From NCBI RefSeq assembly GCF_014698965.1, contig NZ_JACXAE010000057.1, positions 62,001-126,000 of the forward strand: a DNA stretch of 64,000 bases, written 5' to 3'. How positions within the stretch are numbered: position 1 is the stretch's first letter; each line of letters starts with the position of its first letter. The position numbers and the translations under genes are program-made. Under the pieces are notes generated by a model that was not told where the DNA came from, did no database searches, and saw nothing but the letters and a program-made list of their open reading frames with translations. The stretch comes from Iningainema tapete BLCC-T55 (GTDB lineage Bacteria > Cyanobacteriota > Cyanobacteriia > Cyanobacteriales > Nostocaceae). Shown here in pieces: positions 41,301 to 58,147 of this stretch.

Positions 41301-44300
41301 GATTTTAGGAAATTTCAACGCAATTGAACACTGTTACTTGTATTCGTCAAAAGTGTTTCAATCCCTATTAGGGATTTTAGGAAATTTCAACAATTCGTGA
41401 ATTAGTTCTCTGTCTGGCTCATCTCGTTTCAATCCCTAATAGGGATTTTAGGAAATTTCAACTCAAAAATTTTCGCTTGGCGATTGGAGATATTTAGCTA
41501 AGTTTCAATCCCTAATAGGGATTTTAGGAAATTTCAACCAAAACGTCTTCTGGTATTTGTTTTATTAGTGAGCTGTTTCAATCCCTAATAGGGATTTTAG
41601 GAAATTTCAACTCTTTTTGTCTTTGCTCTCTTGCAGCGTTGGTTGTGTTTCAATCCCTAATAGGGATTTTAGGAAATTTCAACCTTTGAGGCGACTGAGG
41701 CGCAAGTCAAAGCTGTGCATGTTTCAATCCCTAATAGGGATTTTAGGAAATTTCAACTCGGTAATCATCATCGGTCATTTGCTTGATGCCACCACGTTTC
41801 AATCCCTAATAGGGATTTTAGGAAATTTCAACTTCTTCGATATCTTTACCTTTATGGATGAATGCTTTAGTTTCAATCCCTAATAGGGATTTTAGGAAAT
41901 TTCAACTACACCATTGCAGCCTGATGGGTCATTTTTCCCAGTTTCAATCCCTAATAGGGATTTTAGGAAATTTCAACCATCGGTAGAAAGAATGCAGGTG
42001 TTCTTGTTCGTGGTTTCAATCCCTAATAGGGATTTTAGGAAATTTCAACCCCCGCGCACCATTCAAATCTCTATCCATAGTTTGTTTCAATCCCTAATAG
42101 GGATTTTAGGAAATTTCAACCATAACAAAGCTAATCCTAATGACAAAATCAAATTTCCGTTTCAATCCCTAATAGGGATTTTAGGAAATTTCAACATTTG
42201 TATATACAAACGGAAATAAGTATTTACAAAAGTTTCAATCCCTAATAGGGATTTTAGGAAATTTCAACGAGAGTTCTAATCCAGCACTAGTGATACGTTT
42301 TTTGTTTCAATCCCTAATAGGGATTTTAGGAAATTTCAACTTGATTTTGTGGCGGTAAGCTACTGATATAAGATGCGTTTCAATCCCTAATAGGGATTTT
42401 AGGAAATTTCAACCCACTAGGTCTTAGAACATACTTCTGGGTTAGCTTGTTTCAATCCCTAATAGGGATTTTAGGAAATTTCAACTCAAAAAAATGGAGA
42501 AATATATGCCTAAAATTACTGCGTTTCAATCCCTAATAGGGATTTTAGGAAATTTCAACGTTACCCCCACGGAGTAATCAAAGCTATTACTCCGTTTCAA
42601 TCCCTAATAGGGATTTTAGGAAATTTCAACAGATATCCTTTGGAAGAAAAGTTTGCTTTTGGGATGTTTCAATCCCTAATAGGGATTTTAGGAAATTTCA
42701 ACTCAACTGGTCTTTTAAAGATTGCATAAATCTTTGTTTCAATCCCTAATAGGGATTTTAGGAAATTTCAACACTAATCCATCTACGTAGTCTTGAGTAC
42801 CTGCATTGTTTCAATCCCTAATAGGGATTTTAGGAAATTTCAACTGACTTACTTGCGACTAGTCGCAAGTGTACCGTAAGTTTCAATCCCTAATAGGGAT
42901 TTTAGGAAATTTCAACAATACCAAAATGTTCGTCATCTAGAGGAATGTTTTTGTTTCAATCCCTAATAGGGATTTTAGGAAATTTCAACATTGCTTCTTT
43001 ATTTGTTCCACTATTACTTACAATGTTTCAATCCCTAATAGGGATTTTAGGAAATTTCAACTCTAGGTGTTTCGATTAGAAAAGCTGGATTAACTGAGTT
43101 TCAATCCCTAATAGGGATTTTAGGAAATTTCAACTATCACATCTATTATTTAACAAATATACCGGAAAGGTTTCAATCCCTAATAGGGATTTTAGGAAAT
43201 TTCAACTGTTGTATCAGATGTTTCTTCTTTTAATGTGCCAAGTTTCAATCCCTAATAGGGATTTTAGGAAATTTCAACGTTGCTTCGCCCTGTCTCTGGA
43301 CAGCCCAAGAATCGTGATGTTTCAATCCCTAATAGGGATTTTAGGAAATTTCAACTATACACTTCTGTACCAGAGGAATCGTAGCCAATAAAAGTTTCAA
43401 TCCCTAATAGGGATTTTAGGAAATTTCAACACTAGTCCTGCGTAGATAGCAGGCGTAAGCGCTAGTTTCAATCCCTAATAGGGATTTTAGGAAATTTCAA
43501 CGAGGCTATCTGTGTACTGATGCGGGATGAAATAGGTTTCAATCCCTAATAGGGATTTTAGGAAATTTCAACAGTAGAAAAAATTTCAATTAGCTGATTT
43601 AGCTCTTTGTTTCAATCCCTAATAGGGATTTTAGGAAATTTCAACATTTTCACATACCCACTTCAAGTTCATTGCTTTTGCTAGTTTCAATCCCTAATAG
43701 GGATTTTAGGAAATTTCAACACTTAAGAAATATCGGTTTGTATCTCTAATTGTTAGTTTCAATCCCTAATAGGGATTTTAGGAAATTTCAACAATTGTTA
43801 ATCAACATCGTAAAAATAGTAAATTGAGTTTCAATCCCTAATAGGGATTTTAGGAAATTTCAACCACCTGACTGTACGTGTTTTCGCTGCATTAGAATAA
43901 GTTTCAATCCCTAATAGGGATTTTAGGAAATTTCAACTTAAAATCGTTAGTTTGTTGTTAGTTAATAAAGGGTTTCAATCCCTAATAGGGATTTTAGGAA
44001 ATTTCAACTTTAAAATCGTTAGTTTGTTGTTAGTTAATAAAGGGTTTCAATCCCTAATAGGGATTTTAGGAAATTTCAACCATTAAAAATATAGCCAATC
44101 CAAAGGGTGTTTTTGTTTCAATCCCTAATAGGGATTTTAGGAAATTTCAACCTAAATTAAGCAGGTGCTATTTTAAGCTTGTTTAGTTTCAATCCCTAAT
44201 AGGGATTTTAGGAAATTTCAACATGACCGAAAACTCAGGCAGCGATCGCCGTCATCAAGTTTCAATCCCTAATAGGGATTTTAGGAAATTTCAACATGAA

Positions 44301-46691
44301 TGCACAGATCTTGGGGTATCAGTGCTATTACTTGTTTCAATCCCTAATAGGGATTTTAGGAAATTTCAACGTCATCCGTTGTATTTTTTGTATTATTGCA
44401 AAGTTAAGTTTCAATCCCTAATAGGGATTTTAGGAAATTTCAACTTTTTGCCTGCCGCTACACCGCCTTGGTTACTATGTTTCAATCCCTAATAGGGATT
44501 TTAGGAAATTTCAACTAATTGTTTAAACTCAACAAAGAGAAACAATGAGTTTCAATCCCTAATAGGGATTTTAGGAAATTTCAACTGTTGTTCCTTGACG
44601 GCTTGACTTAATTGATGAGGTTTCAATCCCTAATAGGGATTTTAGGAAATTTCAACCGGACGAGTTGACAGGAATCGGAAACCGTCGTAAATTCGTTTCA
44701 ATCCCTAATAGGGATTTTAGGAAATTTCAACTTATGTACTGCAATTTGAGGCTTATTTGCTTGCATCCGTTTCAATCCCTAATAGGGATTTTAGGAAATT
44801 TCAACCAGATTGACCCTGCCGCGCCTATGCTCGTCGCTCATTAGTTTCAATCCCTAATAGGGATTTTAGGAAATTTCAACGCACAGTAGAAATATATGCT
44901 GATTAAGTAAACAAAGGTTTCAATCCCTAATAGGGATTTTAGGAAATTTCAACAGATATCCTTTGGAAGAAAAGTTTGCTTTTGGGATGTTTCAATCCCT
45001 AATAGGGATTTTAGGAAATTTCAACTCAACTGGTCTTTTAAAGATTGCATAAATCTTTGTTTCAATCCCTAATAGGGATTTTAGGAAATTTCAACACTAA
45101 TCCATCTACGTAGTCTTGAGTACCTGCATTGTTTCAATCCCTAATAGGGATTTTAGGAAATTTCAACTGACTTACTTGCGACTAGTCGCAAGTGTACCGT
45201 AAGTTTCAATCCCTAATAGGGATTTTAGGAAATTTCAACAATACCAAAATGTTCGTCATCTAGAGGAATGTTTTTGTTTCAATCCCTAATAGGGATTTTA
45301 GGAAATTTCAACCTTTCAATTTAGACTTAAATATTGAAATTAATTATGTTTCAATCCCTAATAGGGATTTTAGGAAATTTCAACATCACCAGGTATACTT
45401 GCGAAGATTTACAAGGAAAGTTTCAATCCCTAATAGGGATTTTAGGAAATTTCAACACTTAAAAGCGTTGGGATTACCAACGAATTATGATAAGTTTCAA
45501 TCCCTAATAGGGATTTTAGGAAATTTCAACTTTTTCACTTGTGAGAAATGCGGGCCAGTACTTTCGTTTCAATCCCTAATAGGGATTTTAGGAAATTTCA
45601 ACGGAGTTACGTACAGGTTACTCAACCATCAGTTACTTTGTTTCAATCCCTAATAGGGATTTTAGGAAATTTCAACGTAGTGGGAGCATATCTGTCGCGC
45701 CACTCAGTCACCGCGTTTCAATCCCTAATAGGGATTTTAGGAAATTTCAACTTGGATCTGATATGGGTTGAGCCAGCATGTAATTGGTTTCAATCCCTAA
45801 TAGGGATTTTAGGAAATTTCAACCTTGTCTTCAACAGCCCAAGAACCGCGTTTACCGTTTCAATCCCTAATAGGGATTTTAGGAAATTTCAACCCCACCT
45901 TGCAATAGCTTGGTTTAATACTTCTAATCTACAGTTTCAATCCCTAATAGGGATTTTAGGAAATTTCAACTAGATACTGAAGTACAGTTTGATTCCGCCC
46001 CTGAGTTTCAATCCCTAATAGGGATTTTAGGAAATTTCAACGAGCACCAGTGCGGTGGATGTAAATTTCGTAACCCGTTTCAATCCCTAATAGGGATTTT
46101 AGGAAATTTCAACTCTTGTGATTGGGATAGGTTGGTGCATAAATTGCTGTTTCAATCCCTAATAGGGATTTTAGGAAATTTCAACGTTTTTGTACTGTGT
46201 ATCCATTTCTTACTAGGCAGTTTCAATCCCTAATAGGGATTTTAGGAAATTTCAACCTAGTGCCTTCCATGCCCTAGCATCGTCCTTCTAAAGTTTCAAT
46301 CCCTAATAGGGATTTTAGGAAATTTCAACTATAATACAAACTCTGTTCCTCCATCTTTGCAAAGTTTCAATCCCTAATAGGGATTTTAGGAAATTTCAAC
46401 AACCGTATATGTCAATAAAATTTTACACCCCTATAGTTTCAATCCCTAATAGGGATTTTAGGAAATTTCAACCTCCAGACACTCTCGCTTGGATTGGATT
46501 AGTAGCCGGTTTCAATCCCTAATAGGGATTTTAGGAAATTTCAACCAAACTTGCACGAGCTAATCTCGCGCAATACATTGTTTCAATCCCTAATAGGGAT
46601 TTTAGGAAATTTCAACCAAAAGACAATGAACCAACTTTCAAAACTCAAAATATTGTTTCAATCCCTAATAGGGATTTTAGGAAATTTCAAC
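38331..46691 (-). CRISPR. Long type I-D-like CRISPR array, about 115 repeats
   Basis: 37-base repeats starting GTTTCAATCCCTAATAGGG on the + strand; spacers are mostly 33-40 bases. I count 115 full repeats (first 38382-38418, last 46655-46691). To the left lies a truncated repeat with only its last 15 bases (38331-38345), and the first full repeat has one base change. Decay at the left end means the leader is on the right and the array is transcribed leftward. The crRNA repeat then ends in AUUGAAAC, the usual handle, with hairpin AAUCCC-UAUUA-GGGAUU. Single-base variants occur near 39130, 39560 and 41366. Confidence 0.99.
42631..45275. repeat. Five-spacer duplicated block inside the array
   Basis: Spacers 42631-42665, 42703-42735, 42773-42807, 42845-42879 and 42917-42952 recur in the same order at 44954-44988, 45026-45058, 45096-45130, 45168-45202 and 45240-45275. 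Both copies are 322 bases long and 2323 bases apart. The flanking spacers differ. Confidence 0.97.
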
Positions 46692-46956: not shown

Positions 46957-47238
46957 CTAGGCAAAGAAGATGGTTTCATCTCGCGGTTGTTCTCCGCCTA
47001 TCCTTTCTACTTTACCTTGACAACAGGCGCAGAGGAAGTAGAACCGGACGCTATCTCCTTTGACAATGACTTTGGTAAGGCGCGATCGCAGCTTAGCATA
47101 CTGAGTTTCTGTCAAGTTGCATTCAAAAATACTATACTGCACCCACTGTCCATAGGATTTGAGTATGGAGTGAATTTTAGTGCGGCGCTTGTCTTCGGAG
47201 ATGTCATAGGATACAACAACAAACTTACTCACCGTCAC
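46957..47238 (-). CDS. cas2: CRISPR-associated endoribonuclease/integrase subunit Cas2
   Basis: 93 residues, GTG start. Ferredoxin-like fold with FVVVSYDISEDKRRTKIHSI (conserved Asp) and GQWVQYSIFECNLTETQY. With Cas1 it forms the spacer integration complex. It is the last gene of the cas operon, 2 bases after cas1 and next to the leader where new spacers enter. Confidence 0.97.
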   Translation of the reverse strand: MTVSKFVVVSYDISEDKRRTKIHSILKSYGQWVQYSIFECNLTETQYAKLRSRLTKVIVKGDSVRFYFLCACCQGKVERIGGEQPRDETIFFA

Positions 47239-47240
47239 CT

Positions 47241-48242
47241 CTACTTAATTACTAAAGGAGGATACTTATCGGTTTCGCCCATCAAGTACTTCGCCAGTAA
47301 CCGCGCTTGAATTTCAAACGCTTCTTGGTAAGTACATTGACGACCCAGGACTGGATGCTTAAACTTGGATTGTTTCTTCTGTTCGTACAATCGCAAAAAT
47401 GTGCGCAGTCCTTCTTTTGTTAAAGATACTGCTCCAGATAGCGGCTCTGTGGTAAAATCGGTAATAAGCAGTGCTTTCTTATTCAACGCTGAAAGTACAA
47501 CTGCATCCACAACTGTAGGTCTAAATTCCTCCATCAGATCTAAGGATAGTGAAGGACGACCGTAACGCTCAACGTGCAAGTAGCCCAAGTATGGATCAAA
47601 ACCGACGATATTTACTGCACTTTGCACGTCGTGACGGAGTAAAGCATAACCCAAACTTAATAGAGAGTTTACAGGATCGGTGGGCGGTCGGCGGCGTCTG
47701 CTTTCAAAGCTAAAACCTTCGGCACGAATTAATTTATTGAAGCAACCGAAGTATGCAGCACTACCAGCACCTTCCAAACCACGTAAAGAATCAATCGATG
47801 CGGTTGTATTAATTGGTGCTAGGGCGTTTTCTAAGTGTGTGATACTTGCATTTAAGTCAATAGCATTTTCTCGTTGAGCGCGAAGTAAGACGTTGCGGTA
47901 ATTTTTCAACTTCCCCCGCACAAAACCCTTGACAACATGCACTGCTTGTGATGTTTCTCCGGCGGCTTGCCACTGCGCTTTACGCACAAAGATATTTTTA
48001 GTCACTTCTGGTTCTAACCTACCAAGATATTTACCTGTATCTGTCAAAAAACTGAGGGGAATATGCCGTTCGAGAAATTCGGAAATAGCAGATGGAGAAA
48101 CTGTTGCCCGTCCTAAAACTACAATACCATCTACTTTGATTAACGGTACATCCAAAAGAGTTTGTTTGTTTGATTTTACACTGAGACGTTCATCTGTTTT
48201 ACCGATAAATGCATCGGCTTCGGTAATGTATACTGTTCCCAT
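47241..48242 (-). CDS. cas1: CRISPR integrase Cas1
   Basis: 333 residues. N-terminal beta domain (MGTVYITEADAFIGKTDERL) and C-terminal helical domain with the metal ligands: Glu in LRGLEGAGSAAYF, His in GYLHVERYGRPSLSLDLMEE and the later acidic residue of the same motif. It joins new spacers at the leader end. Full length and apparently intact. Confidence 0.97.
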   Translation of the reverse strand: MGTVYITEADAFIGKTDERLSVKSNKQTLLDVPLIKVDGIVVLGRATVSPSAISEFLERHIPLSFLTDTGKYLGRLEPEVTKNIFVRKAQWQAAGETSQAVHVVKGFVRGKLKNYRNVLLRAQRENAIDLNASITHLENALAPINTTASIDSLRGLEGAGSAAYFGCFNKLIRAEGFSFESRRRRPPTDPVNSLLSLGYALLRHDVQSAVNIVGFDPYLGYLHVERYGRPSLSLDLMEEFRPTVVDAVVLSALNKKALLITDFTTEPLSGAVSLTKEGLRTFLRLYEQKKQSKFKHPVLGRQCTYQEAFEIQARLLAKYLMGETDKYPPLVIK

Positions 48243-48262
48243 AATTGTTCTAAAAGTGAGTA

Positions 48263-48856
48263 TTAATTGGCTTCTTGATAGCGGTTAACTTTTGCAGTTG
48301 CTTGCGGTAAGCATTGGGAATACAAACTACAACCAGAACAGCGCTCGCCATACACTGGTGGTGGCATTTTTCCTGTTTCAAGCAAATTATTGACAGCTTG
48401 AATTGTTGCCAAGGTAGCTTCTCGCATTTCGGCACTTATTTCTACTAACTGACGCTGGTGAGATTCAGCATAATAAACATAACCTTGAGTCACTTTTTCA
48501 CCAGTCATATCTTCCAAACAAAGTGCTTGGGCTATGACTTGCATTGCATCATTATCCCACTCTCCCTTGCGTCCGCGCTTGTATTCTACAGGGTAAAAAC
48601 GTCCGTCTGTTTCTTCAATTAAATCAGCTTTACCAATTAATTGATAACGCTCAGACTTTAACCAAATAGCGCGTATTTGCCAAGTTTCTTCCCGTTGTCC
48701 TTCTCCTAATGTATGGACGCGAGAATGTAAACTAGTCCCTTCAATTGTGTATTGATTATCAGTAAATTCTCCAGCACAAAACATTCTCCAGCATCGATGG
48801 GGACAATAGCTATATTGATTCAGAGCAGCAATGGGAATATATTCAGTATTATTCAT
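48263..48856 (-). CDS. cas4: Cas4 nuclease, adaptation factor
   Basis: 197 residues. The Fe-S cysteines are in NQYSYCPHRCWRMF near the start and in GERCSGCSLYSQCLP near the end. RecB nuclease motifs: IGKADLIEETDG and YPVEYKRGRKG. Cas4 trims prespacers and selects those with the right PAM. It sits between cas6 and cas1 as in other type I-D loci. Confidence 0.96.
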   Translation of the reverse strand: MNNTEYIPIAALNQYSYCPHRCWRMFCAGEFTDNQYTIEGTSLHSRVHTLGEGQREETWQIRAIWLKSERYQLIGKADLIEETDGRFYPVEYKRGRKGEWDNDAMQVIAQALCLEDMTGEKVTQGYVYYAESHQRQLVEISAEMREATLATIQAVNNLLETGKMPPPVYGERCSGCSLYSQCLPQATAKVNRYQEAN

Positions 48857-48861
48857 GGTAT

Positions 48862-49710
48862 TTAATCAACATTGCGTCTGGTCATTTTTAATCGTCGTGT
48901 CATTCCCATACCCATAGTGGTTTTTCTTCCTACACCAGAGTAAAGAGCAAAATCCGCTAGGGTATTGATTTGTTTAATAATTAAAGGATTGACTTCTCCT
49001 AATATTCGATAGTTAATTTCGCCGACGCAGCCGATAAATTTGCTGCGGGAATCTGCTCCAATGGCAGTGCGAATATTAAAGAAACTGGGAAAAAGAACTT
49101 CTGTGAGATTAGGTTCTAAGGGTATACCGCTATATTTGTGCCAACGTTGAAGTAGACTGTTAAAGACACATTCTCTTGTTGGTAAAGCAGTATCAAACTC
49201 TCCTTGGCGGAAGTTGGTGAGAGTGGAGAAACTCAAGAAAATTTGGCGATCGCTTTCCGAAGCCTGCTCGTACAATTGAGCGTAAGTAGTAGCATTTGCC
49301 CAAGGTTGTGTAGACTGGGGAGTGCCAAGGATGCTGGTAATATACAAGTCAGCAGAACCCAAGTGCCAAGGATGGGTAGGGTTAATATTGAGCCACAGTT
49401 GGGTAAGCTTACTAAAAAGAGTGTCATCTAGTAAAGAGATGCGCCACCAACAAGGAGTTCCTGTTTGTATGGGTTGTTGATGTTCCCATTGCAAAGCGTG
49501 ATCTGAGTTTCTGTTTCTGGTAGTATGGTAAACTTGCAAGGGGCTGAGGGTGAAAGCTTTGTCAGCGGTGGATTCGTGGAGGCGCGAGCCTAATTCCTTA
49601 TCCACCGAACTAACCAAGGTGAGAAATAGGGCATGGAGATGTCTACCTGTTAAGAATTGTGGGTAAATGGGAGATTGGGGAAGTAGGTTGAGGACGAGAC
49701 TGTGAGGCAT
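48862..49710 (-). CDS. cas6: crRNA-processing endoribonuclease Cas6
   Basis: 282 residues. Two RAMP-type ferredoxin folds; the glycine-rich loop near the end reads GVGRKTTMGMGMTRR. It should cut each repeat 3' of the AAUCCC hairpin, leaving an AUUGAAAC handle. Both arrays in the window carry the same hairpin, so this single Cas6 can serve both. Candidate general base His lies in the first half (TGRHLHALFL) but is not proven. Confidence 0.93.
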   Translation of the reverse strand: MPHSLVLNLLPQSPIYPQFLTGRHLHALFLTLVSSVDKELGSRLHESTADKAFTLSPLQVYHTTRNRNSDHALQWEHQQPIQTGTPCWWRISLLDDTLFSKLTQLWLNINPTHPWHLGSADLYITSILGTPQSTQPWANATTYAQLYEQASESDRQIFLSFSTLTNFRQGEFDTALPTRECVFNSLLQRWHKYSGIPLEPNLTEVLFPSFFNIRTAIGADSRSKFIGCVGEINYRILGEVNPLIIKQINTLADFALYSGVGRKTTMGMGMTRRLKMTRRNVD

Positions 49711-49721
49711 TTTCAGTAAAC

Positions 49722-52400
49722 TTAATAAGTTTGGGGATTTAAAGCTTTTGTATATGTAATAATCGCTGATTTATTGTCAGTATGCTTACAGAGCAACTTT
49801 TCCTCAAAATCGTTGGTTTTGAGTTTAATGAACACACCCGGTAGTTCTACAAAACCTAGTTCTGGATTGTAAGGGTACTCTGGTTTATCTTCATACATTA
49901 GAGCAGCTTCATTATTTGGGTGAATCTCAATTACTATATCTTTCAAGTAAGCTGAACCCCATCCTAAATTTCGTACATCCCAGCGAGTTGTTTCCTGATT
50001 ATAGTAATGCTCGTACACATGAGTATTAGCGTACTGGTTATTGTCATTTTTAATCAAGCGGTCAATTGGGACTTTAATTTTATGCTGGTCTTTGCTACCA
50101 TCTTTATAAATCAATGTTGCTGAGGGTGTCCAACTGCGAGTGATTACTAAACCTTTTTCATGGGCTGTTTTACAAGTGAGGTCAGCACCATAAACGTAGT
50201 CGTGTAGCATTGAGAACACTTCCACTACTCGATAGTCGTCAACATGCTCAGAACGCGAAATACATTCGATAATCGCTTGAGTATCAAATTTTTCTAATGA
50301 TGTTAGTGTTTCTTGGTATTTTTGCCACCCGGACTCATCTAAGCTGTTTGCAAAGTCAGGGATGGAATTACCTACCACTATAACTTTGGCATCAGAAATA
50401 TTTCCTTTACGGTTACAACGTCCTGCTCTTTGAATCAAGTTTTCAGGAGGGCAAATTTCGGAAACAAGCACCTCAGCATTCAAATCACAACCAACTTCTA
50501 TTGCACTTGTTGTAATTAAAAGGTAAGGCTGATTTTTGGAATCGCGTTCTTGCAGTTGTTTATAAATACTTGGTCTAAGTTGGTCGGCAATTCTACCATG
50601 ATAGAGGAATAAAAACCTTCCTTGAGCATCAGTATTGCCACTTAAATAATTGTTTAAATACTGATAAATGGCTGCTGCATCTTTGACCCGTTCAACTACG
50701 GCAATAAGTCTCCGGTCAGTTTTAACAGTCCATTCTCGGAGAATTATTTGAGCAAATTCATGTTGGAAAATCTCAGGTACTTCAGAATCACGCTGAATAT
50801 GGCTAATCCATTCAAAGCCTTTTTGATTGAGGTAAGGTTGTCTTAAAGTTTGCTGCTGAAACTGCTTGAGTTTTTCAACCTTTTCAAGTTCATCAACATA
50901 ATCTATAGAGTTAAGATAATCAAAGCGTTCGATATACTCCTTAGGCATTGTGGCTGTCATCAGGATGAGCGATCGCCCTGCTTCGTAAAGTGCTTTGACT
51001 AAACTGTGAAAGTTTGTGAAGGAAATTTCATCATAGCTGTGAGCCTCATCAAAGCAGATGAGTGTTTTTTCTCGATGTATTCTCAAAGGGAAGGTAAATG
51101 ACTTCTGTTTGTCACCGAAACCAAAATAACGATAGAGAAATTTATCCAATGTTGTAAGGATAACATCACCTTTGTACAAATGGCGTCGGAGATTTGAAGT
51201 GCGTTTGGTTTCATCCCCATTTTTGTACACCCAGCGATACATCTGTGAGCCTGTGTCTACAACCAAAGAAACTTCTCTATCTTTTTGCAATATGGAAAAC
51301 TTCTTCAGGTATTTTTCGATACGCTCCTTCTGGTCTTCTAACAAGCTGCGAGCGGGTAAAGGCAGAATTAGGCGATAATTTGATGCTAATGCTGGAAACA
51401 ATACTGACTCAAACTTACCTGAACCAGTAGAACTTTTCAGCAAAATTGCAGGATGTTTTTCATCATTGGGGTCATAAATTGCCTCAAACATCTCAGCTTG
51501 CATAGGGTTAGGTGTAAAACCTGCTAACTGCTGATAGAAATCTTTTGCTGTCCACTCTTTTGATGTAATGGCTGAGCGATAAGGTTTGAGAATAATAGTT
51601 TTGGAAATAGATTCCTTTGGCTGACCCTGCTGAGATTGCCACCAGCGTTTAGTTATACGGTCTAGCGTCTTGCCTAAATCCCCCTCTCGATTATCTTTCA
51701 GGCATTTTTGCAACTCTCCATCTGTATCTAATTCAGCAGGTTGCATTGACCAACACCTAAAAGTTAGTTCAATGAAATTTAACTCTGGCTCAAATGCCCA
51801 AGGGTCTATCAGATAAGTTGTAGGTTCTGACTCATCTTGTGTAATGGTAAAGTCCATAAAAGCGCGAGATTCTGCCTGTTTTCCGTCTTCAAAAACTCGA
51901 CAAGCTAGCTCAGCCTCAATTTGATCGCACATTTCTAGAATGTAAAGTTCACGAGCATAGGCAAGCGGTTCTTTAGTTAAGATTTCAGCATAATGCTGTT
52001 CTTTTTTCAAGGTATAAGCATCACGACAGATATCCTCAACAGAAAAATCATGATGTCCAATTGCCAAAGCTTCTGCCCAAGCATCTTTTTTACTTTTAGC
52101 TAAGAACCGATGCCCTCGAAAAGAATAAGTGTATTCTTGAAATTTGCTTTTTGCAATTTTTGCTATAATTTCAAACCTTTGTGGTTTGCCATTGTCATGA
52201 ATGCTTGCGGCTTCGAGAACTTGGTCGAATGAAGACTCAGAGGGAAAGTCGTTTTTACGCCAACACTTCACCAATTTCCTGACATTACCGACATGATTAC
52301 CTAGTGCTTGAAAACGTACCTCAGAAGGAATTGGATTAACTTCACTAGGGAAGAAAACTCGACCAAACTTAAATGGATATTGGCGTTGTGGTTTAGACAT
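49722..52400 (-). CDS. cas3: Cas3 with N-terminal HD nuclease and DEAH-type helicase
   Basis: 892 residues from ATG 52400 (AGGTGA site upstream); a GTG nine bases earlier is possible. The N-terminal HD domain has SIHDNGKPQRFEI (near residue 67) and IGHHDFSVEDI. Helicase motifs: Walker A region SSTGSGKFES (~323), FDEAHSYDEI (~450), LMTATMPKEY, and IQRAGRCNRKG (~660). Canonical type I-D has an HD-less Cas3 and the HD domain on Cas10d; here it is on Cas3. Walker A has Phe where Thr/Ser is usual (GSGKF). The gene stands between csc1 and cas6, overlapping csc1 by 8 bases. Confidence 0.93.
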   Translation of the reverse strand: MSKPQRQYPFKFGRVFFPSEVNPIPSEVRFQALGNHVGNVRKLVKCWRKNDFPSESSFDQVLEAASIHDNGKPQRFEIIAKIAKSKFQEYTYSFRGHRFLAKSKKDAWAEALAIGHHDFSVEDICRDAYTLKKEQHYAEILTKEPLAYARELYILEMCDQIEAELACRVFEDGKQAESRAFMDFTITQDESEPTTYLIDPWAFEPELNFIELTFRCWSMQPAELDTDGELQKCLKDNREGDLGKTLDRITKRWWQSQQGQPKESISKTIILKPYRSAITSKEWTAKDFYQQLAGFTPNPMQAEMFEAIYDPNDEKHPAILLKSSTGSGKFESVLFPALASNYRLILPLPARSLLEDQKERIEKYLKKFSILQKDREVSLVVDTGSQMYRWVYKNGDETKRTSNLRRHLYKGDVILTTLDKFLYRYFGFGDKQKSFTFPLRIHREKTLICFDEAHSYDEISFTNFHSLVKALYEAGRSLILMTATMPKEYIERFDYLNSIDYVDELEKVEKLKQFQQQTLRQPYLNQKGFEWISHIQRDSEVPEIFQHEFAQIILREWTVKTDRRLIAVVERVKDAAAIYQYLNNYLSGNTDAQGRFLFLYHGRIADQLRPSIYKQLQERDSKNQPYLLITTSAIEVGCDLNAEVLVSEICPPENLIQRAGRCNRKGNISDAKVIVVGNSIPDFANSLDESGWQKYQETLTSLEKFDTQAIIECISRSEHVDDYRVVEVFSMLHDYVYGADLTCKTAHEKGLVITRSWTPSATLIYKDGSKDQHKIKVPIDRLIKNDNNQYANTHVYEHYYNQETTRWDVRNLGWGSAYLKDIVIEIHPNNEAALMYEDKPEYPYNPELGFVELPGVFIKLKTNDFEEKLLCKHTDNKSAIITYTKALNPQTY

Positions 52401-53220
52401 AAGCTTCACCTTTCAGCAGGTTGACGATAGAGACAGGGATATTAATTTCATTCCCATCAGTGTAGTATTCGAGGGTAGGAGCATAACCAGTTTGTTTTGA
52501 AAAATAAGCTGTAACAAACGGGACAAATCCCTCTACTTTAGCTGGCTGATTGTCCAGAAATCCTTCTGGCTCACATTGGTTTTGGGCATCTGTCGCCCAT
52601 TTGTAGCGATAGAGATTATAAATATCGCACCCGCTAACAAACTGGTTACTCTGCAAGAGAGTTTCCATCGGCACAATTGTTGAAGGATGAACTGTAGCGG
52701 TTTCTTGGCGTAACTCCAATATTTCTGAAACCTCTAAAACAATAGCAAAGCCTTCTTTACCTAACTTGCAGCCGTAACCTTTTAAGTCTCGAAAATGCTC
52801 TAATCCTTTTGGAGAATTAGCTACTACATAGCCAACCAATTCTTCTGCAATTAAATATTCCCAAGTGTGCAGTTGAAAATTTTCCTTGTCTCCATCTTGA
52901 TAAAGCCTGGAAAAAGCATCATGGTTAAACTCGCGCATTCCTTTGCGGTAAGTTCGATGTACTGCGCTCCAGGTTCCTTTAACTGGATATGCTCCTAGAG
53001 CCAAGTAACGTGGAGGTAAAGCATAAATTGGTGGGTTTTCATTGTTGACGCGAGTTTCAGGAATGTCTAACCCAACACTCATCATGCCTAACCTCCGCAA
53101 GAAACCAGATAGAGTAGTTGGAGGAACAAAAGGATAGGTGGCAATGTTGAGAATTGACCCAGGCAGTATGCGAAAGGTCATAGCTGCAGTGGGTTGAATT
53201 TTGAGTTCAACACAGTACAT
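52393..53220 (-). CDS. csc1: Csc1, Cas5-type backbone subunit of type I-D Cascade
   Basis: 275 residues. RAMP-like N-terminus (VELKIQPTAAMTFRILPGS) and the glycine-containing stretch VPPTTLSGFLRRLGM, typical for Cas5 proteins that cap the 5' handle of crRNA. The type I-D assignment rests on the neighbouring Csc2-like and Cas10d-like genes. Starts 3 bases after csc2. Confidence 0.85.
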   Translation of the reverse strand: MYCVELKIQPTAAMTFRILPGSILNIATYPFVPPTTLSGFLRRLGMMSVGLDIPETRVNNENPPIYALPPRYLALGAYPVKGTWSAVHRTYRKGMREFNHDAFSRLYQDGDKENFQLHTWEYLIAEELVGYVVANSPKGLEHFRDLKGYGCKLGKEGFAIVLEVSEILELRQETATVHPSTIVPMETLLQSNQFVSGCDIYNLYRYKWATDAQNQCEPEGFLDNQPAKVEGFVPFVTAYFSKQTGYAPTLEYYTDGNEINIPVSIVNLLKGEAYV

Positions 53221-53223
53221 AAT

Positions 53224-54096
53224 TCATGCTTGTAAAACAGTGTCTACGAACTGGCTGGAATACTCTTGTAATTTTTCCAAAGCAACATCCCCTATCCAGC
53301 GCTCAAAGTGCGTAAGTTGAATGTGATTAGTGTTTGCTTCTGGAGTTTTGGCAAGGCGAAGGAAGTCACTAATAGCCTCTTGAGGATTGGTAATTGATGG
53401 AGAAATAACTGGGCGCTTGCCTTTGGGAACAAGGTAGCGATCTACAACTAGAAGAGGCATTTGGTCAGCGGTTTCAGCGATCGCAATCCCCTTCGGATTC
53501 CCAGAACCAATGCGAGGCAAGGAATCTAGAAAAGCGTAACCAACAGAAGCAAACTCTGCGTCGGTGACACTGAGCGCATGGGTAGAGACAGGGTAGAGAA
53601 TTCCTGGCTGGTTATACTCGCGCTTAAACGGAATCGGGGTTTCTTCTTTCTGGTTGACAATGCGTGCAGGATGCATAGCTCGTTGCTTTTCCACTGGATA
53701 AATATCCTGCACCGCCACGCCGCCGCCGTGTGTCACGCGACCAATTAAAGTCTTTTTCCCAGCTATCAAACCACCATAGGGAGCGCAAATCGGACAGTTT
53801 GGCAAAGCGCAGGTTTCAGGAATGCCGCACTTTAGCTTGTCTCCCAGCAGTTCTCCGTTTTTGACAGGTGCCCAGATCAAACTGCGTCGTTCGACTCCAC
53901 GTCGTTTTGTTGGAGAGATGTAACATTTTTCTAGCGATCGCCCATCCTTCGTCGTTAGTTTGACCGACTCAACCAAGTTAACATTCACCTGTACTTCGTG
54001 ACCCAAGTAAAGTTCTTGAGAGCCTTCCAAAATTGCGTAAATATCAAAGTGTAGACGTGGATGCTTATCATCAGTTTTAGGAAGTCCAGTTGCCAT
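53224..54096 (-). CDS. csc2: Csc2, Cas7-type backbone subunit of type I-D Cascade
   Basis: 290 residues. RAMP fold with the type I-D-like cysteine cluster CGIPETCALPNCPICAPYGG and RVTHGGGVAVQDIYPVEKQ. The C-terminal part has DSLPRIGSGNPKGIAI. Several copies would form the spine along the guide part of the crRNA. Starts 2 bases after the large-subunit stop. Confidence 0.9.
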   Translation of the reverse strand: MATGLPKTDDKHPRLHFDIYAILEGSQELYLGHEVQVNVNLVESVKLTTKDGRSLEKCYISPTKRRGVERRSLIWAPVKNGELLGDKLKCGIPETCALPNCPICAPYGGLIAGKKTLIGRVTHGGGVAVQDIYPVEKQRAMHPARIVNQKEETPIPFKREYNQPGILYPVSTHALSVTDAEFASVGYAFLDSLPRIGSGNPKGIAIAETADQMPLLVVDRYLVPKGKRPVISPSITNPQEAISDFLRLAKTPEANTNHIQLTHFERWIGDVALEKLQEYSSQFVDTVLQA

Positions 54097-54098
54097 AG

Positions 54099-56558
54099 TT
54101 ATTTCTCACTTGTAGATTTCAGCTTGCGAACCAGTTCAGGAAAACGAGTGTAGAGAGAAAGTTTGAGTTGATAGGTCAACTCGTTCCAATCTTTTGGTTG
54201 AATATAATTACCTTCAGCAAAGTAAGTATAAGCTCTTAAAACATCATCAGCATATAGAGTCAGATAAATTTTTCCTGCCTCATCTTGCTCTTGTCTGTTA
54301 GAAATGCTCAAAGTCTCCATTAGCTTTTTAACTTGCTCATAAATAAAGTAGTTATCAGGATGTTGGTATAACCGAGCTTGAACACTCTTTTTTGTTTCAT
54401 CTCCAAGGGTAGCGTAATAGCAAAATGCAACAGCATCATCAACCTTTTCAATCAACTTGCTCACCTCTCGCTCAACATCTTCTTGCTTCATAGCCTTTTT
54501 TGCTGTACTCTCTAAAGACTGAGCAAATGCATAGGTCAAGCCAGTTAATGCAGCAACATCTCTGTATAACCTAGCTCGTTTTGATAATTGGTTATCTGAA
54601 CCCATAGAAACTCCTTTTGCGTCTAAATCCTTTTGTATCGCTCGCCAGTATCGCTCACGAACTTGTTCTAATTTAAATTCGTCTGAGAACTGGGCAACTT
54701 TTGTTAGAGTATAGTCTGCTAGATAAGGTAAATCCTGCTGTACATAACGCACTGCGTCTCCTAAAGTCATATTGATTTCTTTGCCAGCATTAATGATTGA
54801 CTGATTATAACTGTCCATCAACCCTTTGATGAAAATTAGATGCCTACTTTGTATATGTATCGGCTGACTGCCCTGAGTAATTAACGAAAATAGAAAATCT
54901 GCTAAAACTTCAACAGGAAAAAGAGAGGCTGCTTTAGCAATGGCATACTGTACTTGACCCAGCTTCTGAGATGCTAATTCTCCTTTGTTTGTCCGGTCTG
55001 AAGTCAAAATTAAATAGCGACCTGCACTCAAATGCATCTGTTTATTCGTCAGCATTCTGATGTAGTCTTTGATTTTTAGTTCAGAAACAGTGCTACTGTC
55101 AGCAGGTTCAAGCCGCAGAATAACGCTTTCATCTGTTACTTTGAGCGGAGAAGCAAAGGCTAATGCTGAACAGGAAGCACAGATATGAGGTCTACCTTCA
55201 CTCGAAGCTGACTGGCGACGTTGGGAAGGTTTCTCAAACATGAATCTTAAGACTTGCCATCGTGCTGTTTTGGGGTCAAGCGCAACCCCGCAGGAGTAGC
55301 AAAATTCTTTGCTGTCGTCTCCTGGCGATCGCACCTCTGGCAAAACAGGTTGCTCAGTAAGTAATGGTTGAGGCAATGGATCACTTGGTTTAGTTTCCAA
55401 AAGGCGATACATCTCGGTAATGCATTGCGTAAAAATATCACCACGAGTTGAGTTAATTTGATCGGTTGCCATTTTGGTAAAGTTCTTGGCGAGCGCACGA
55501 ATATCCTTGAAATTCTCTGGATTATTCTGCTCGTCTAGCTGAACAAACTCAAATGGATCGCCTTTAGATTCATTGAATAAATCCTGCTTCTGCTGAATAG
55601 ACTCTTGAGAAAAAACTAACTTTTCCCTCAGCTTCTCTTGCTGCTTTTGTAATTTTCGTTGGTCAGATTTAGTCAAATTTTGCTTTGCCAACTTAGATTC
55701 AAGTTGTTTTAGCTCTTGCCACACAGTATTTTGTTCTTCTAAATTTTTGCCAAAGGACTTGTGAAAATACTCAACGTATTTCTGAGCTTCCTTTGCCTGC
55801 ATTGCCTGCTTATCCTGCAAATCTTTTGCTTTGGATTTGCGTTCCTTCTCGTTGAGGTCGAGGTTAGCAAGGTCTTTTTCTAAGTCATTAATCTGCTGCT
55901 GACGAACTACCTGACGTTTTCTAACATCCCGAATAACTGCATAATACCAGGCAGCTAATACATTGGATTGCTCTTGAGTCAGAATTGGCACATCCAAAGT
56001 GCTGAATCCTCTTCCTGATAAAGTAATAGCATTCAGCATCACGATGAAAGTCTGAACTAAGCCTGGTAACTGATGCTTAGTATAGCCGTAAGCAGAGAAG
56101 GCAACTTTTTTAAGAAACTCTTCCCATTCTGTGAAGTTTTGTATTTGCTGATTGGGAATGAAAACTTTTACATGGCGATCGCTCTCATCGAGTACGACGA
56201 TTTGGTATTGCTTTTGCAAATACTCCAAAAATCTATCTATTGCACTCTCAATTGCTAATCTTGCTTGCAACTCACCAGGTAATGGGTATTTATAGAGAAT
56301 TTGAATTCTACCGATTGTTTGACCCTGATATATGACTTGGTTTTGTTCAAAGTCCAGTTGTAGAGATGCGTCTGTTATTTCATTTTGCTTTGCCAACGTT
56401 AACTCTCGCATGAGCCTGGGAGAGTTGAACGACGGTGCGATCGCCATTATATCCGGCATATTCGCTAGTACTGCAATTAGTGCTGACTTCTGAGTGGAGA
56501 CAACATCAGCAACTAAAGCGCTCAAGAGAATGCATATTTGAACGCTGCCTATATTCAT
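54099..56558 (-). CDS. cas10d: Cas10d/Csc3-like large subunit without HD domain
   Basis: About 819 residues from ATG 56558; a TTG at 56576 is possible. A zinc-finger pair typical of Cas10d lies in the middle (FCYSCGVALD near residue 419; HICASCSALAF near 461). A charged coiled-coil-like insertion (~210-350) precedes it. No HD nuclease motif is found at the N-terminus, where canonical Cas10d has one, and no GGDD cyclase motif. In the complex it should recognise the PAM and the target strand. Assignment rests on the zinc fingers and the csc2/csc1 neighbours; a Cas8-like name is possible. Confidence 0.8.
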   Translation of the reverse strand: MNIGSVQICILLSALVADVVSTQKSALIAVLANMPDIMAIAPSFNSPRLMRELTLAKQNEITDASLQLDFEQNQVIYQGQTIGRIQILYKYPLPGELQARLAIESAIDRFLEYLQKQYQIVVLDESDRHVKVFIPNQQIQNFTEWEEFLKKVAFSAYGYTKHQLPGLVQTFIVMLNAITLSGRGFSTLDVPILTQEQSNVLAAWYYAVIRDVRKRQVVRQQQINDLEKDLANLDLNEKERKSKAKDLQDKQAMQAKEAQKYVEYFHKSFGKNLEEQNTVWQELKQLESKLAKQNLTKSDQRKLQKQQEKLREKLVFSQESIQQKQDLFNESKGDPFEFVQLDEQNNPENFKDIRALAKNFTKMATDQINSTRGDIFTQCITEMYRLLETKPSDPLPQPLLTEQPVLPEVRSPGDDSKEFCYSCGVALDPKTARWQVLRFMFEKPSQRRQSASSEGRPHICASCSALAFASPLKVTDESVILRLEPADSSTVSELKIKDYIRMLTNKQMHLSAGRYLILTSDRTNKGELASQKLGQVQYAIAKAASLFPVEVLADFLFSLITQGSQPIHIQSRHLIFIKGLMDSYNQSIINAGKEINMTLGDAVRYVQQDLPYLADYTLTKVAQFSDEFKLEQVRERYWRAIQKDLDAKGVSMGSDNQLSKRARLYRDVAALTGLTYAFAQSLESTAKKAMKQEDVEREVSKLIEKVDDAVAFCYYATLGDETKKSVQARLYQHPDNYFIYEQVKKLMETLSISNRQEQDEAGKIYLTLYADDVLRAYTYFAEGNYIQPKDWNELTYQLKLSLYTRFPELVRKLKSTSEK

Positions 56559-56648
56559 TGTGTGTGTAATTTTCAAGTTTAAGTAAGTGGGAGAAGTAGA
56601 TACTATCCCCCCACATCAAAGCAATGCTCTTTAAGAGAGTAGTTTTGA

Positions 56649-56837
56649 CTAAATCATTAGTCGATACTCGTGTTGCTGACCTTCAATTCGGCGTTTATCG
56701 AACTTGTAACCCTGCTTCTTCAAGATATGTATAGTTGCGGAGAACCTGTGACTAACTTTCTCTACCAGTTCCTTGGAAGAGTGCCAGCATCCATCCGACA
56801 TGAGTCGGAGTAAACGGTCTGGAAGGTTATCATTCAT
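56649..56837 (-). CDS. Small winged-helix protein at the head of the cas operon
   Basis: 62 residues from MNDNLPDRLLRLMSDG. LLRLMSDGCWHSSKELVEKV followed by HRFSATIHILKKQGYKFDKR is a winged helix-turn-helix pattern. It lies between the cas promoter and the large-subunit gene on the same strand, so it is the first gene of the cas mRNA. It may be an autoregulator of the operon or a small Cascade accessory; neither is shown. Confidence 0.7.
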   Translation of the reverse strand: MNDNLPDRLLRLMSDGCWHSSKELVEKVSHRFSATIHILKKQGYKFDKRRIEGQQHEYRLMI

Positions 56838-56955
56838 GGCAATTGTGTCCAAAGGGTGTACAACCAGACAAGCCATGCGCTATCCTATGAATTGCGAGAA
56901 CATAGGCGGACTGGGCGCTTGTCTAGTTCGCTTTCCAATCTACAATAATTTAATC

Positions 56956-56993
56956 GTCTGTGTCAATGGATGCTAAGTTTATAGCACAAAGAC
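56956..56993. promoter_or_regulatory. cas operon promoter overlapping a PAM-flanked guide match
   Basis: On the - strand an extended -10 TGCTATAAA (TATAAA = 56978-56983) should start transcription near 56971, ~134 bases before the winged-helix gene. On the + strand GTC (56956-56958) precedes TGTGTCAATGGA (56959-56970), which matches the first 12 bases of the pseudo-spacer at 57077 (11 of 12). A bound Cascade would cover the start site and -10. Confidence 0.6.
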
Positions 56994-57055
56994 TATTCAA
57001 AGTATTTCAAAAACTGTATGCTGTATAGGCTCCAGTAAAAATACACTCTAATTCC

Positions 57056-57163
57056 ATCCCTATCAGGGATTGAAAATGTGTAAATGGAGCGCTTAAGTTA
57101 ATAGCACAACTTTTTTGAATCCCTATCAGGGATTGCCAGCCAGACTTAGACGCTGGCTTTTTT
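57056..57163 (+). ncRNA. Candidate CreR-like crRNA: degenerate repeat, pseudo-spacer, degenerate repeat
   Basis: Two repeat-like halves ATCCCTATCAGGGATTG (57056-57072; 57119-57135) match the 3' half of the crRNA repeat with the same T-to-C loop change. The first continues into ATTGAAAA (57069-57076), a handle with one change. The 41 bases between begin with TGTGTAAATGGA, a near copy of the cas promoter start site. A Rho-independent terminator follows on the same strand. The design matches Cas-regulating guide RNAs known from other type I loci; that it is one is inference. Confidence 0.6.
57135..57163 (+). terminator. Rho-independent terminator after the pseudo-repeat
   Basis: GCCAGC (57135-57140) pairs with GCTGGC (57152-57157) around an 11-base loop, then TTTTTT. 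No gene ends here on the + strand, so it should terminate a short RNA from the region before it. Confidence 0.85.
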
Positions 57164-57280: not shown

Positions 57281-58147
57281 ATGACACGAAAAAAAGAAAC
57301 AATTACACTGTCAATTCCACCAGGGACGAAAGAGCAACTAGAGGCGATCGCTCGTCGCTTAAACATCCTTTGGGGCAAAGAACCCAGTATTTCTGGGTTA
57401 ATTGTGGCGATCGCCCAACAATCTGTAGAAGTTGGAAAGCCATTTACCCTTGACTCCAATCAAGTCAATGCCTTGCAGCAAGCCATCAAAGCTTTAAATG
57501 ATGCAGGTCGTGTGGGGGAAGCACAAACTGTACTTGCACTTTTGCTTGACAGAAGCAACCTGGAAGCTCCTTTACGTCAATCCCTGATGAAACAACTCAA
57601 TCAACCCACCCAACTATGGCGGAATCAAATTGAAGAGCTAGTTAAACAACAGCAACCATTCCATCTTCTCTACCACAACTCACAAGGAGAGGATTTAGAT
57701 TATACAGTTCGTTATGCTGAAGTTCGCTTCTTCGACAACCGCTTCTATCTGATGATCTGGTGCGAAGAAACTCAAGACGTAGAAAATGACATCCCAGATA
57801 TACCAGAACTATGGCATAACCGTTGCTTGGTTTTTAACGGCATTCAGTCAGTTATCCCAACCAGTGGTAATTGGCGAGGTGAACTAGATCATCTCAAAGT
57901 GTACTTACACTTTCGGGGATGGCTGAAAAAATCCTACAAGCGTAGACCTGAAGAAGACATAGACGATAAAATTGTCGGAGACGTGCGACAGGTGGAGCGC
58001 AAAGTCGTAAATCATTTTTGGTTAATTAGAGAAGTCTTGCGCTATTGGGATGAATGCGTGATTGTTGCACCTGATAACCTGCGTCAACGCATACAGCAAA
58101 AGCTACGCACCCTATGCGATTTTTACGATATCGAAACTAAAGAGTGA
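57281..58147 (+). CDS. WYL-domain regulator of the CRISPR locus
   Basis: About 288 residues. N-terminal ribbon-helix-helix-like part (ETITLSIPPGTKEQLEAIAR), then a WYL domain: FHLLYHNSQGEDLDYTVRYA, RFYLMIWCEETQDV, with a WCX-like end (VIVAPDNLRQRIQQKLRTL). A WYL protein (Sll7009) stands divergent to the type I-D operon of Synechocystis 6803 and was reported to repress it. The same position here suggests the same job. WYL domains may bind nucleic acid or nucleotides. Confidence 0.88.
   Translation: MTRKKETITLSIPPGTKEQLEAIARRLNILWGKEPSISGLIVAIAQQSVEVGKPFTLDSNQVNALQQAIKALNDAGRVGEAQTVLALLLDRSNLEAPLRQSLMKQLNQPTQLWRNQIEELVKQQQPFHLLYHNSQGEDLDYTVRYAEVRFFDNRFYLMIWCEETQDVENDIPDIPELWHNRCLVFNGIQSVIPTSGNWRGELDHLKVYLHFRGWLKKSYKRRPEEDIDDKIVGDVRQVERKVVNHFWLIREVLRYWDECVIVAPDNLRQRIQQKLRTLCDFYDIETKE

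Follow-up and report, generated by a model that had tools for sequence, protein, structure and literature searches.

A predicted CreR-like guide unit beside a mosaic cas operon in Iningainema tapete BLCC-T55, with co-varying guide/promoter pairs at other cyanobacterial loci

The window, a stretch of 64,000 nucleotides from Iningainema tapete BLCC-T55, carries a minus-strand operon in the order winged-helix-like ORF, Cas8b, Cas7b, Cas5b, Cas3, Cas6, Cas4, Cas1 and Cas2, followed by a CRISPR array (Table 1). The effector is classed as type I-B by PADLOC models only (Cas8b, Cas7b and Cas5b); its Cas8, Cas7 and Cas5 gave no NCBIfam or Pfam match. No type I-D effector (Cas10d/Csc3, Csc2, Csc1) was recovered in the window, the PADLOC Cas7d model reaching only 16.9 bits, and the type I-D label that a first-pass annotation had attached to the effector gives way to the PADLOC assignment. 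I-D-like Cas1 and Cas6 were both present, and the region 46957-56576 reads as a mosaic in which a I-B effector and Cas3 are joined to these I-D-like proteins. Cas2 was assigned from position and likeness, without a profile. Within the array, a stretch of 300 nt is duplicated exactly (42594-42893 and 44917-45216, spacing 2,323 bases). The small protein that leads the operon showed only weak, sub-threshold winged-helix matches in Pfam. It is 64-74% identical to products of six of the sister loci described below (L090, L093 and L095-L098), where it is kept upstream of differing, I-D effectors, and is possibly an extra regulator.

Table 1. Coordinates and supporting evidence for features of the window
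Feature	Position	Strand	Evidence or remark
CRISPR array	38454..46691	-	111 exact copies of GTTGAAATTTCCTAAAATCCCTATTAGGGATTGAAAC; spacers mostly 34-36 nt
cas4, cas1 (I-D-like), cas2	46957..48856	-	TIGR04093 Cas1d 448.1 bits; TIGR00372 Cas4 172 bits
Cas6, I-D-like	48862..49710	-	PADLOC Cas6d 499.8 bits
Cas3 helicase	49722..52409	-	HD-like N-terminal stretch seen by eye only
Cas5b	52393..53220	-	PADLOC 429.1 bits
Cas7b	53224..54096	-	PADLOC 442.9 bits
Cas8b large subunit, type I-B	54099..56576	-	PADLOC Cas8b 1123.6 bits
Small winged-helix-like protein	56649..56837	-	62 aa from conserved start; leads cas operon; translation
Predicted cas promoter	56937..56966	-	TTGACA (56966-56961), 18 nt, TAGATT (56942-56937)
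PAM GTC	56956..56958	+	Adjoins target; sequence reading
Target seed TGTGTCAATGGA in cas promoter	56959..56970	+	Gapped homology to pseudo-spacer continues to 56989
Psi-repeat 1	57050..57076	+	Ends in 5' handle ATTGAAAA (57069-57076); sequence reading
Pseudo-spacer/guide TGTGTAAATGGAGCGCTTAAGTTAATAGCACAA...	57077..57117	+	41 nt
Psi-repeat 2	57118..57137	+	Sequence reading
Rho-independent terminator-like stem GCCAGC/GCTGGC and TTTTTT run	57135..57163	+	Sequence reading, fold
WYL-domain regulator	57281..58147	+	Divergent from cas operon

Between the cas operon and the WYL gene, on the plus strand, lies a psi-repeat unit, that is, a degenerate-repeat mini-CRISPR adjoining the cas genes, which is one mark of the CreR RNAs compared below. 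Two degenerate repeat halves around a pseudo-spacer had been proposed here, and both could be read, at 57050-57076 and 57118-57137. The end of psi-repeat 1, ATCCCTATCAGGGATTGAAAA, is identical at 19 of 21 positions to the end of the array repeat in crRNA sense, ATCCCTATTAGGGATTGAAAC, and Rfam CRISPR-DR5 matched psi-repeat 2 (57118-57135) below threshold (24.1 bits, gathering 40; E 0.41). The 17-mer ATCCCTATCAGGGATTG has exactly two copies in the 9.5 Mb genome, both in the unit; with up to 2 mismatches, the matches were arrays and one other pair, and a reversed control gave 0. The terminator proposed at 57135-57163 was likewise recovered as a stem and T run that are terminator-like by sequence, and a promoter/terminator scan with a loop limit of 8 did not flag the stem. 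A similar motif follows psi-repeat 2 in L016, L020, L088-L098, L125, L140, L161 and L167 and is absent in L086, L087 and L099-L101. In the minimum-energy fold of the whole unit (-35.4 kcal/mol, z -3.19), psi-repeat 1 pairs with psi-repeat 2, and such predicted pairing might form at the expense of the Cas6 hairpin.

Elsewhere in the same genome, on the minus strand at C13:186065-186137 (L025, about 1445-1520), stands another degenerate repeat-spacer-repeat that is crRNA-like. Its guide had no GT-PAM target within 1 mismatch, the sole other site, C72:83319, being without a GT PAM. The neighboring gene had been taken by eye for an integrase, an identification dropped in the absence of a Pfam match.

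The guide of the window unit, TGTGTAAATGGA..., begins at 57077, directly 3' of the handle, and differs from TGTGTCAATGGA only at base 6 of 12. The earlier description of this match (11 of 12 bases, mismatch at base 6, start at the handle border, GTC before it) was confirmed by reading the sequence, and a second mark of CreR, limited complementarity to the predicted cas promoter that starts from the handle beside a PAM, is met. The match had also been placed over the cas start site and -10, which did not hold: the protospacer lies over the predicted -35 box TTGACA, and the PAM falls between the predicted -35 and -10. The promoter scan found 4 promoter-like sites, against 1.9 expected. Similarity between guide and target extends for about 20 further columns beyond base 12, giving 27 identical columns of 32 overall, and none of 500 shuffles scored as well as the distal part. 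Because this extension needs two gaps, in-register pairing stops at base 12. Chance was dropped as the source of the match on the strength of shuffled guides: the 10/10 seed match with GT PAM (window unit, L076) was not reached in 200 tries on the same upstream DNA. Genome-wide, the seed with a GTN PAM, base 6 left free, occurs at 2 places, one in the cas promoter and one where an ATP-grasp, sucC-like gene starts. This second place (C1:40885-40899, L240; PAM GTG; about 0.3 estimated by chance) is possibly a second regulated site.

For examination of covariation, units were selected by their psi-repeat pair, using pattern searches of 388 and 217 genomes. Twenty-one units were scored, comprising all 16 from the 217-genome search and five from the 388-genome search, the latter also picked by length: among the matches listed from the 388 genomes, ten short ones were chosen, of which four were shared with the 217-genome search and one (L069) was left unscored. 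Further units beyond the matches listed in the 388-genome search may exist. Selection of the scored units was blind to the guide/target match; their loci are related. Of the 21, 14 have a site upstream that shares 9 or more of the 10 seed bases (1-5 and 7-11) and stands behind a GT PAM, a level reached by shuffled guides in 6 of 4,200 trials. Seven units fell short of it: L072, a member of the GAATAAGTCTG family that scores 8/10; L077, L083, L067 and L068, which resemble ordinary arrays or unrelated pairs; and L079 and L082, which have psi-repeats and no target that could be found. Psi-repeats without a promoter match had been named in advance as a refuting case, and such cases do occur in L079 and L082, but they are a minority (2 of 21 units). 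The idea that L082, or the WYL-linked locus L003, had lost its cas genes was rejected, as the I-D genes are present and only the promoter side differs.

Guides vary by family (TGTGTnAATGGA, TAGTGnCATATA, TGTAGnAAAGA, GAATAAGTCTG, GCTGTnGCCTT and others), each fitting its own locus. An earlier search free of any PAM or strand condition had such sites among the best matches of the psi-repeat units; most stood behind GTC, at a distance of 85-100 nt upstream of the repeat pair. In family D (L064, L065 and L072) the target is on the opposite strand, with PAM GTT, an arrangement permitted for an RNA guide and not for a tandem duplication. The L101/L066 pair is weak, with mismatches at 6, 7 and 12, and was kept in the set. 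L094 carries the promoter target twice, once 88 nt and once 287 nt upstream of its unit, each copy with GTC as PAM. The covariation check proposed in the first-pass annotation came out in its favor: psi-repeat, guide and promoter match occur together at other loci, starting at the handle border, with GTC or GTT PAMs and differing guides, so that the promoter target changes along with the guide from locus to locus. Among 40 genomes (own and relatives), the first 16 bases of the window guide are matched exactly in the window only. A 1-mismatch relative of the window guide, L244 in G014, was discarded for want of repeats around the site. With no other genome seen to carry the window guide, covariation is shown between families and not within the window's own family A.

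Units were also sought from the WYL gene and from Cas8b. A WYL protein search brought 21 loci, two of which pass the strict GT-PAM seed-pair test: Nostoc paludosum FACHB-159 (L016) and Cylindrospermum sp. NIES-4074 (L020), both with a window-like layout, the guide TAGTGACATATATACATAGG and promoters reading GTC TAGTGTCATATAAACATTG. In two others, L003 and L010, psi-repeats are present and a target is lacking, and no GT-PAM seed pair was found by the strict scan in the remaining 17. The WYL gene has a match in 218 of the 388 genomes. A repeat-agnostic scan was then run on 110 WYL loci, made up of 30 and a further 80 hand-chosen among the matches listed, excluding six genomes already fetched (G058, G273, G289, G309, G379 and G382). 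The scan looked for the handle TTGNAAN followed by a word recurring nearby, with no PAM required and position 6 free. It returned 22 matches, 7 of them with the handle ATTGAAAN; 6 of these 7 have a GT PAM and fall in five loci, namely the window and the newly found L119 (two targets), L125, L140 and L161, and the seventh, L123, has PAM TAA. Psi-repeat 1 is visible in all four new loci, and psi-repeat 2 and a terminator in L125, L140 and L161; neither could be seen in L119. The L140 guide resembles that of L016, so the two may not be independent families. Allowing one mismatch added L167; the matches with an 'AA' PAM in that scan were for the most part genuine arrays, joined by a tandem word in L093/L103 that is unrelated. 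Array matches in L087 and a low-complexity match with GT in L121 were not counted as units.

A relative of the window Cas8b occurs in 24 of the 388 genomes, with a guide/promoter pair in five, all GTC: the window, G008 (L219, the L161 unit), G034 (L220, the L167 unit), G262 (L232) and G299 (L234). GT-marked matches in L225 and L230 were excluded, being inside or beside coding sequence and without a psi-repeat. L216 has psi-repeats and a terminator and no convincing target, and in many WYL loci, such as L001, L004 and Nostoc sp. UHCC 0302 (L238), the strict scan did not find the unit. The psi-repeat unit occurs in more than one strain without being universal.

Across 25 guide/target pairs the PAM was GTC in 18 and GTT in 7, part of the pairs having been picked with a GT PAM in view. 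A PAM of 5'-GTN-3', as for type I-D Cascade, fits all 25, and GT PAMs also came up in the searches run without a PAM condition; GTN is the type I-D PAM reported for Synechocystis in the portion of PMC10212523 consulted. For the I-B effector of the window, no independent PAM determination stands behind this fit: when array protospacers were sought in phage records, only an array of Nostoc phage YongM matched. This is a two-repeat CRISPR array (L237 1505-1612) with the same repeat core as the window array, and a functional CRISPR array in Nostoc viruses is reported in the title of PMC4916379.

Seed mismatches were then tabulated over bases 1-12 in 14 distinct pairs, these being the 14 units at 9/10 or better and L072, with L081 and L084 merged. 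Positions 6 and 12 account for 14 of the 20 mismatches (binomial 2e-7, assuming an independence that is not true of related loci). When mismatches were united per family, 7 of 11 fell at 6 or 12 (p 6e-4). Base 6 was free in scoring, so that choice of the best site could give part of its excess; base 12 was never scored. In the repeat-agnostic scans the excess at base 6 is there by construction; in that set base 12 is changed in L119, L125 and L161, whereas L140 differs at 13 and 14 and L167 at 11. In type I Cascade the free position recurs every six bases, and mismatches concentrated at 6 and 12 are as expected for such a complex; drift of this kind would be surprising in a protein operator. 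The type I Cascade seed is given as the first 8-10 nt except position 6 in the part of PMC10212523 available.

These data bear on whether the two similar stretches are simply a duplicated operator for the WYL or winged-helix protein, the repeat halves being fortuitous or a relic. The adjoining WYL gene and the roughly 32 columns of similarity in the window, with two gaps and a significant distal part, would suit such an origin. However, in 23 of the other 24 pairs distal similarity fell short of significance (all above 0.05), the remaining one, an L119 pair, being borderline at 0.036. The WYL proteins of the window and L088 are 77% identical and have the N-terminal ETITLSIPPGTKEQLEAIAR in common, whereas the words TGTGTnAATGGA and TAGTGnCATATA are wholly different; it was on these near-identical N-termini with different repeated words that WYL operator duplication was dropped. 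The units in L086 and L099 have no WYL match in the fetched stretch, and neither the handle-border start nor the GT PAM nor the 6/12 mismatches would be predicted. The promoter duplication that the first-pass annotation had kept as its alternative founders on the same register, PAM and mismatch pattern, and on the opposite-strand family, and a duplicated operator is considered very unlikely.

Alternatively, the unit could be a dead self-spacer, an old repeat-spacer-repeat captured from the promoter and decaying without function. The spacer-length homology in the window, 1-base register slips in L232 and L234, and the absence of a remaining target in L079 and L082 can be read in this way; against it, bases 1-5 and 7-11 are mostly retained while 6 and 12 drift, a promoter-like box and terminator of the unit's own recur across loci, and several genera carry the unit with new guides. 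Decay without function is accordingly scarcely credible, even though an origin by self-capture is compatible with current function. As a general origin, self-capture was set aside, distal homology being significant in the window only.

Sixteen sister stretches (L086-L101) were compared for their CRISPR type. Effectors are near that of L088 in ten and near that of L100 in four; L095 has a distant third and the effector of L099 was not classed. NCBIfam type I-D models were passed by Csc2 and Csc1 in L088 and by Cas10d, Csc2 and Csc1 in L100; the L088 large-subunit ORF, split from its HD part, gave no NCBIfam match. Most sister units adjoin type I-D effectors. The window Cas8, Cas7 and Cas5 had no tblastn match at 1e-5 in any of the sixteen, while a Cas6 64-74% identical to that of the window is present in 13. 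Cas6 being conserved while effectors differ, the guide slot follows the Cas6/adaptation module and not the effector. In the type I-D locus L088, the cas operon is headed by a DUF433/DUF5615 gene pair (3060-3667), which we take to be often a toxin-antitoxin.

Promoter geometry was tabulated by consensus matches in 20 loci, many of them kin. In 16 of them, the -35-like hexamer with the highest score has its start 7-10 bases from the PAM and is followed, 16-19 nt farther on, by a TATATT/TATACT/TACATT/TATGTT/TAGATT box; L119, L125, L161 and L167 did not match this -35/-10 register. A TATACT/TATATT/TATAAT-like box stands 19-21 nt before psi-repeat 1, also in 16 of 20 loci, which suggests, from such matches, that the unit has its own promoter. 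No good box was present at the usual place in the window, L119, L125 or L161, the nearest in the window being TATGCT at 27. This weak box, together with the freedom of base 6 in scoring, slightly lowers confidence in a CreR-like reading of the window.

That reading nevertheless remains the one we hold with high confidence: the window unit would encode a CreR-like, crRNA-like guide that autorepresses the cas genes. It had been put forward in the first-pass annotation, and it is supported here by anatomy, handle register, PAM, covariation between loci, mismatch pattern and predicted promoter geometry; transcription, Cas6 processing, binding and repression are inferred. A short RNA would start upstream of 57050 and end at 57163, and Cas6 would cut in psi-repeat 1 to leave a plus-strand RNA with the handle AUUGAAAA and the 5' end AUUGAAAAUGUGUAAAUGGA. 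This guide RNA would enter the operon's own Cascade (I-B effector, I-D-like Cas6), which, once loaded, would bind GTC and about 11-12 bp over the -35 box and block RNA polymerase. With so few base pairs, and with the register lost past base 12, Cas3 cutting would not be triggered, and the locus would repress rather than destroy itself. Repression would lift when the effector is occupied by array crRNAs or disabled by an anti-CRISPR, the response to crRNA load being likewise an inference.

A guide of the same kind could instead act as a CreA-type antitoxin, the silenced promoter driving a toxin (RNA or small protein) that makes the cas operon addictive. The target promoter does first transcribe a leader and the small winged-helix ORF, and the gene pair at the head of the L088 operon would fit, but the conserved small protein resembles a regulator and no toxin ORF was recognized by eye in 56838-56956. 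An RNA toxin would be invisible to sequence. We regard an addictive operon of this type as highly improbable.

Extending the CreR-like reading beyond the window, we lean slightly toward a portable cyanobacterial CreR cassette, in which the promoter target, the self-guide and, in many cases, the WYL gene remain with Cas6/Cas4/Cas1 while interference genes swap between I-B and at least two I-D lineages. The guide would be rewritten for each local promoter under selection that treats every sixth base as free; that of the window would be a promoter-derived spacer, capped by small gaps after base 12 and binding without cutting. If so, this would be the first CreR recognized for a type I-D system, with its Cas10-like large subunit. 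If the CreR-like reading itself is true, cyanobacterial I-D and I-B systems would possess an intrinsic RNA feedback that gauges free effector and acts beside the WYL repressor so far proposed for the Synechocystis system. The natural guide/target pairs, in which the ignored positions 6 and 12 are shown, form a set of evolved, presumably non-cutting guides useful for the design of repressing guides.

CreR (cas-regulating RNA; Liu et al. 2023, Cell Host Microbe 31:1481) is covered, in the parts seen, by the reviews PMC13131331, PMC12737573 and PMC12948488, and is described as a crRNA-like repressor of cas genes that works through partial promoter complementarity (PMC13131331, PMC12737573). The passages seen give its subtypes as I-B, I-E and V-A (PMC13131331, which also mentions Cas9 autorepression) or as type I and V-A generally (PMC12737573). 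As these reviews already describe CreR, the kind is known and the window unit is a new member. No CreR in type I-D or Nostoc was among the literature matches listed, which were mostly off-topic, the original CreR study being outside their scope; as far as checked, the type I-D cases widen the CreR range. The window resembles CreR in its mini-CRISPR, crRNA-like guide, limited cas-promoter complementarity and predicted autorepression by the cognate effector. Unlike the CreR of PMC13131331, as far as the consulted part of that review describes it, its I-B effector is cyanobacterial with I-D-like Cas6 and Cas1, and sister loci are type I-D. The degenerate psiR1 and psiR2 of haloarchaeal CreTA (PMC9458426, in the part seen) have a counterpart in the degenerate repeats of the window, whose crRNA-like guide is likewise inferred to repress, as does CreA, but the target here is the cas promoter and no toxin was recognized by eye. 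Sll7009, a WYL regulator, is described in the available text of PMC10212523 as a protein repressor of the Synechocystis type I-D CRISPR. The window WYL protein is similarly tied to a cyanobacterial CRISPR operon; unlike that protein repressor, the guide RNA would be a separate layer of control. The Cas9 self-guide of Streptococcus is a long tracrRNA that targets Cas9's own promoter with pairing too short to cut. The window effector would likewise be turned on its own promoter through short pairing, as inferred here, whereas Streptococcus Cas9 is a Class 2 effector with a tracrRNA-derived guide.
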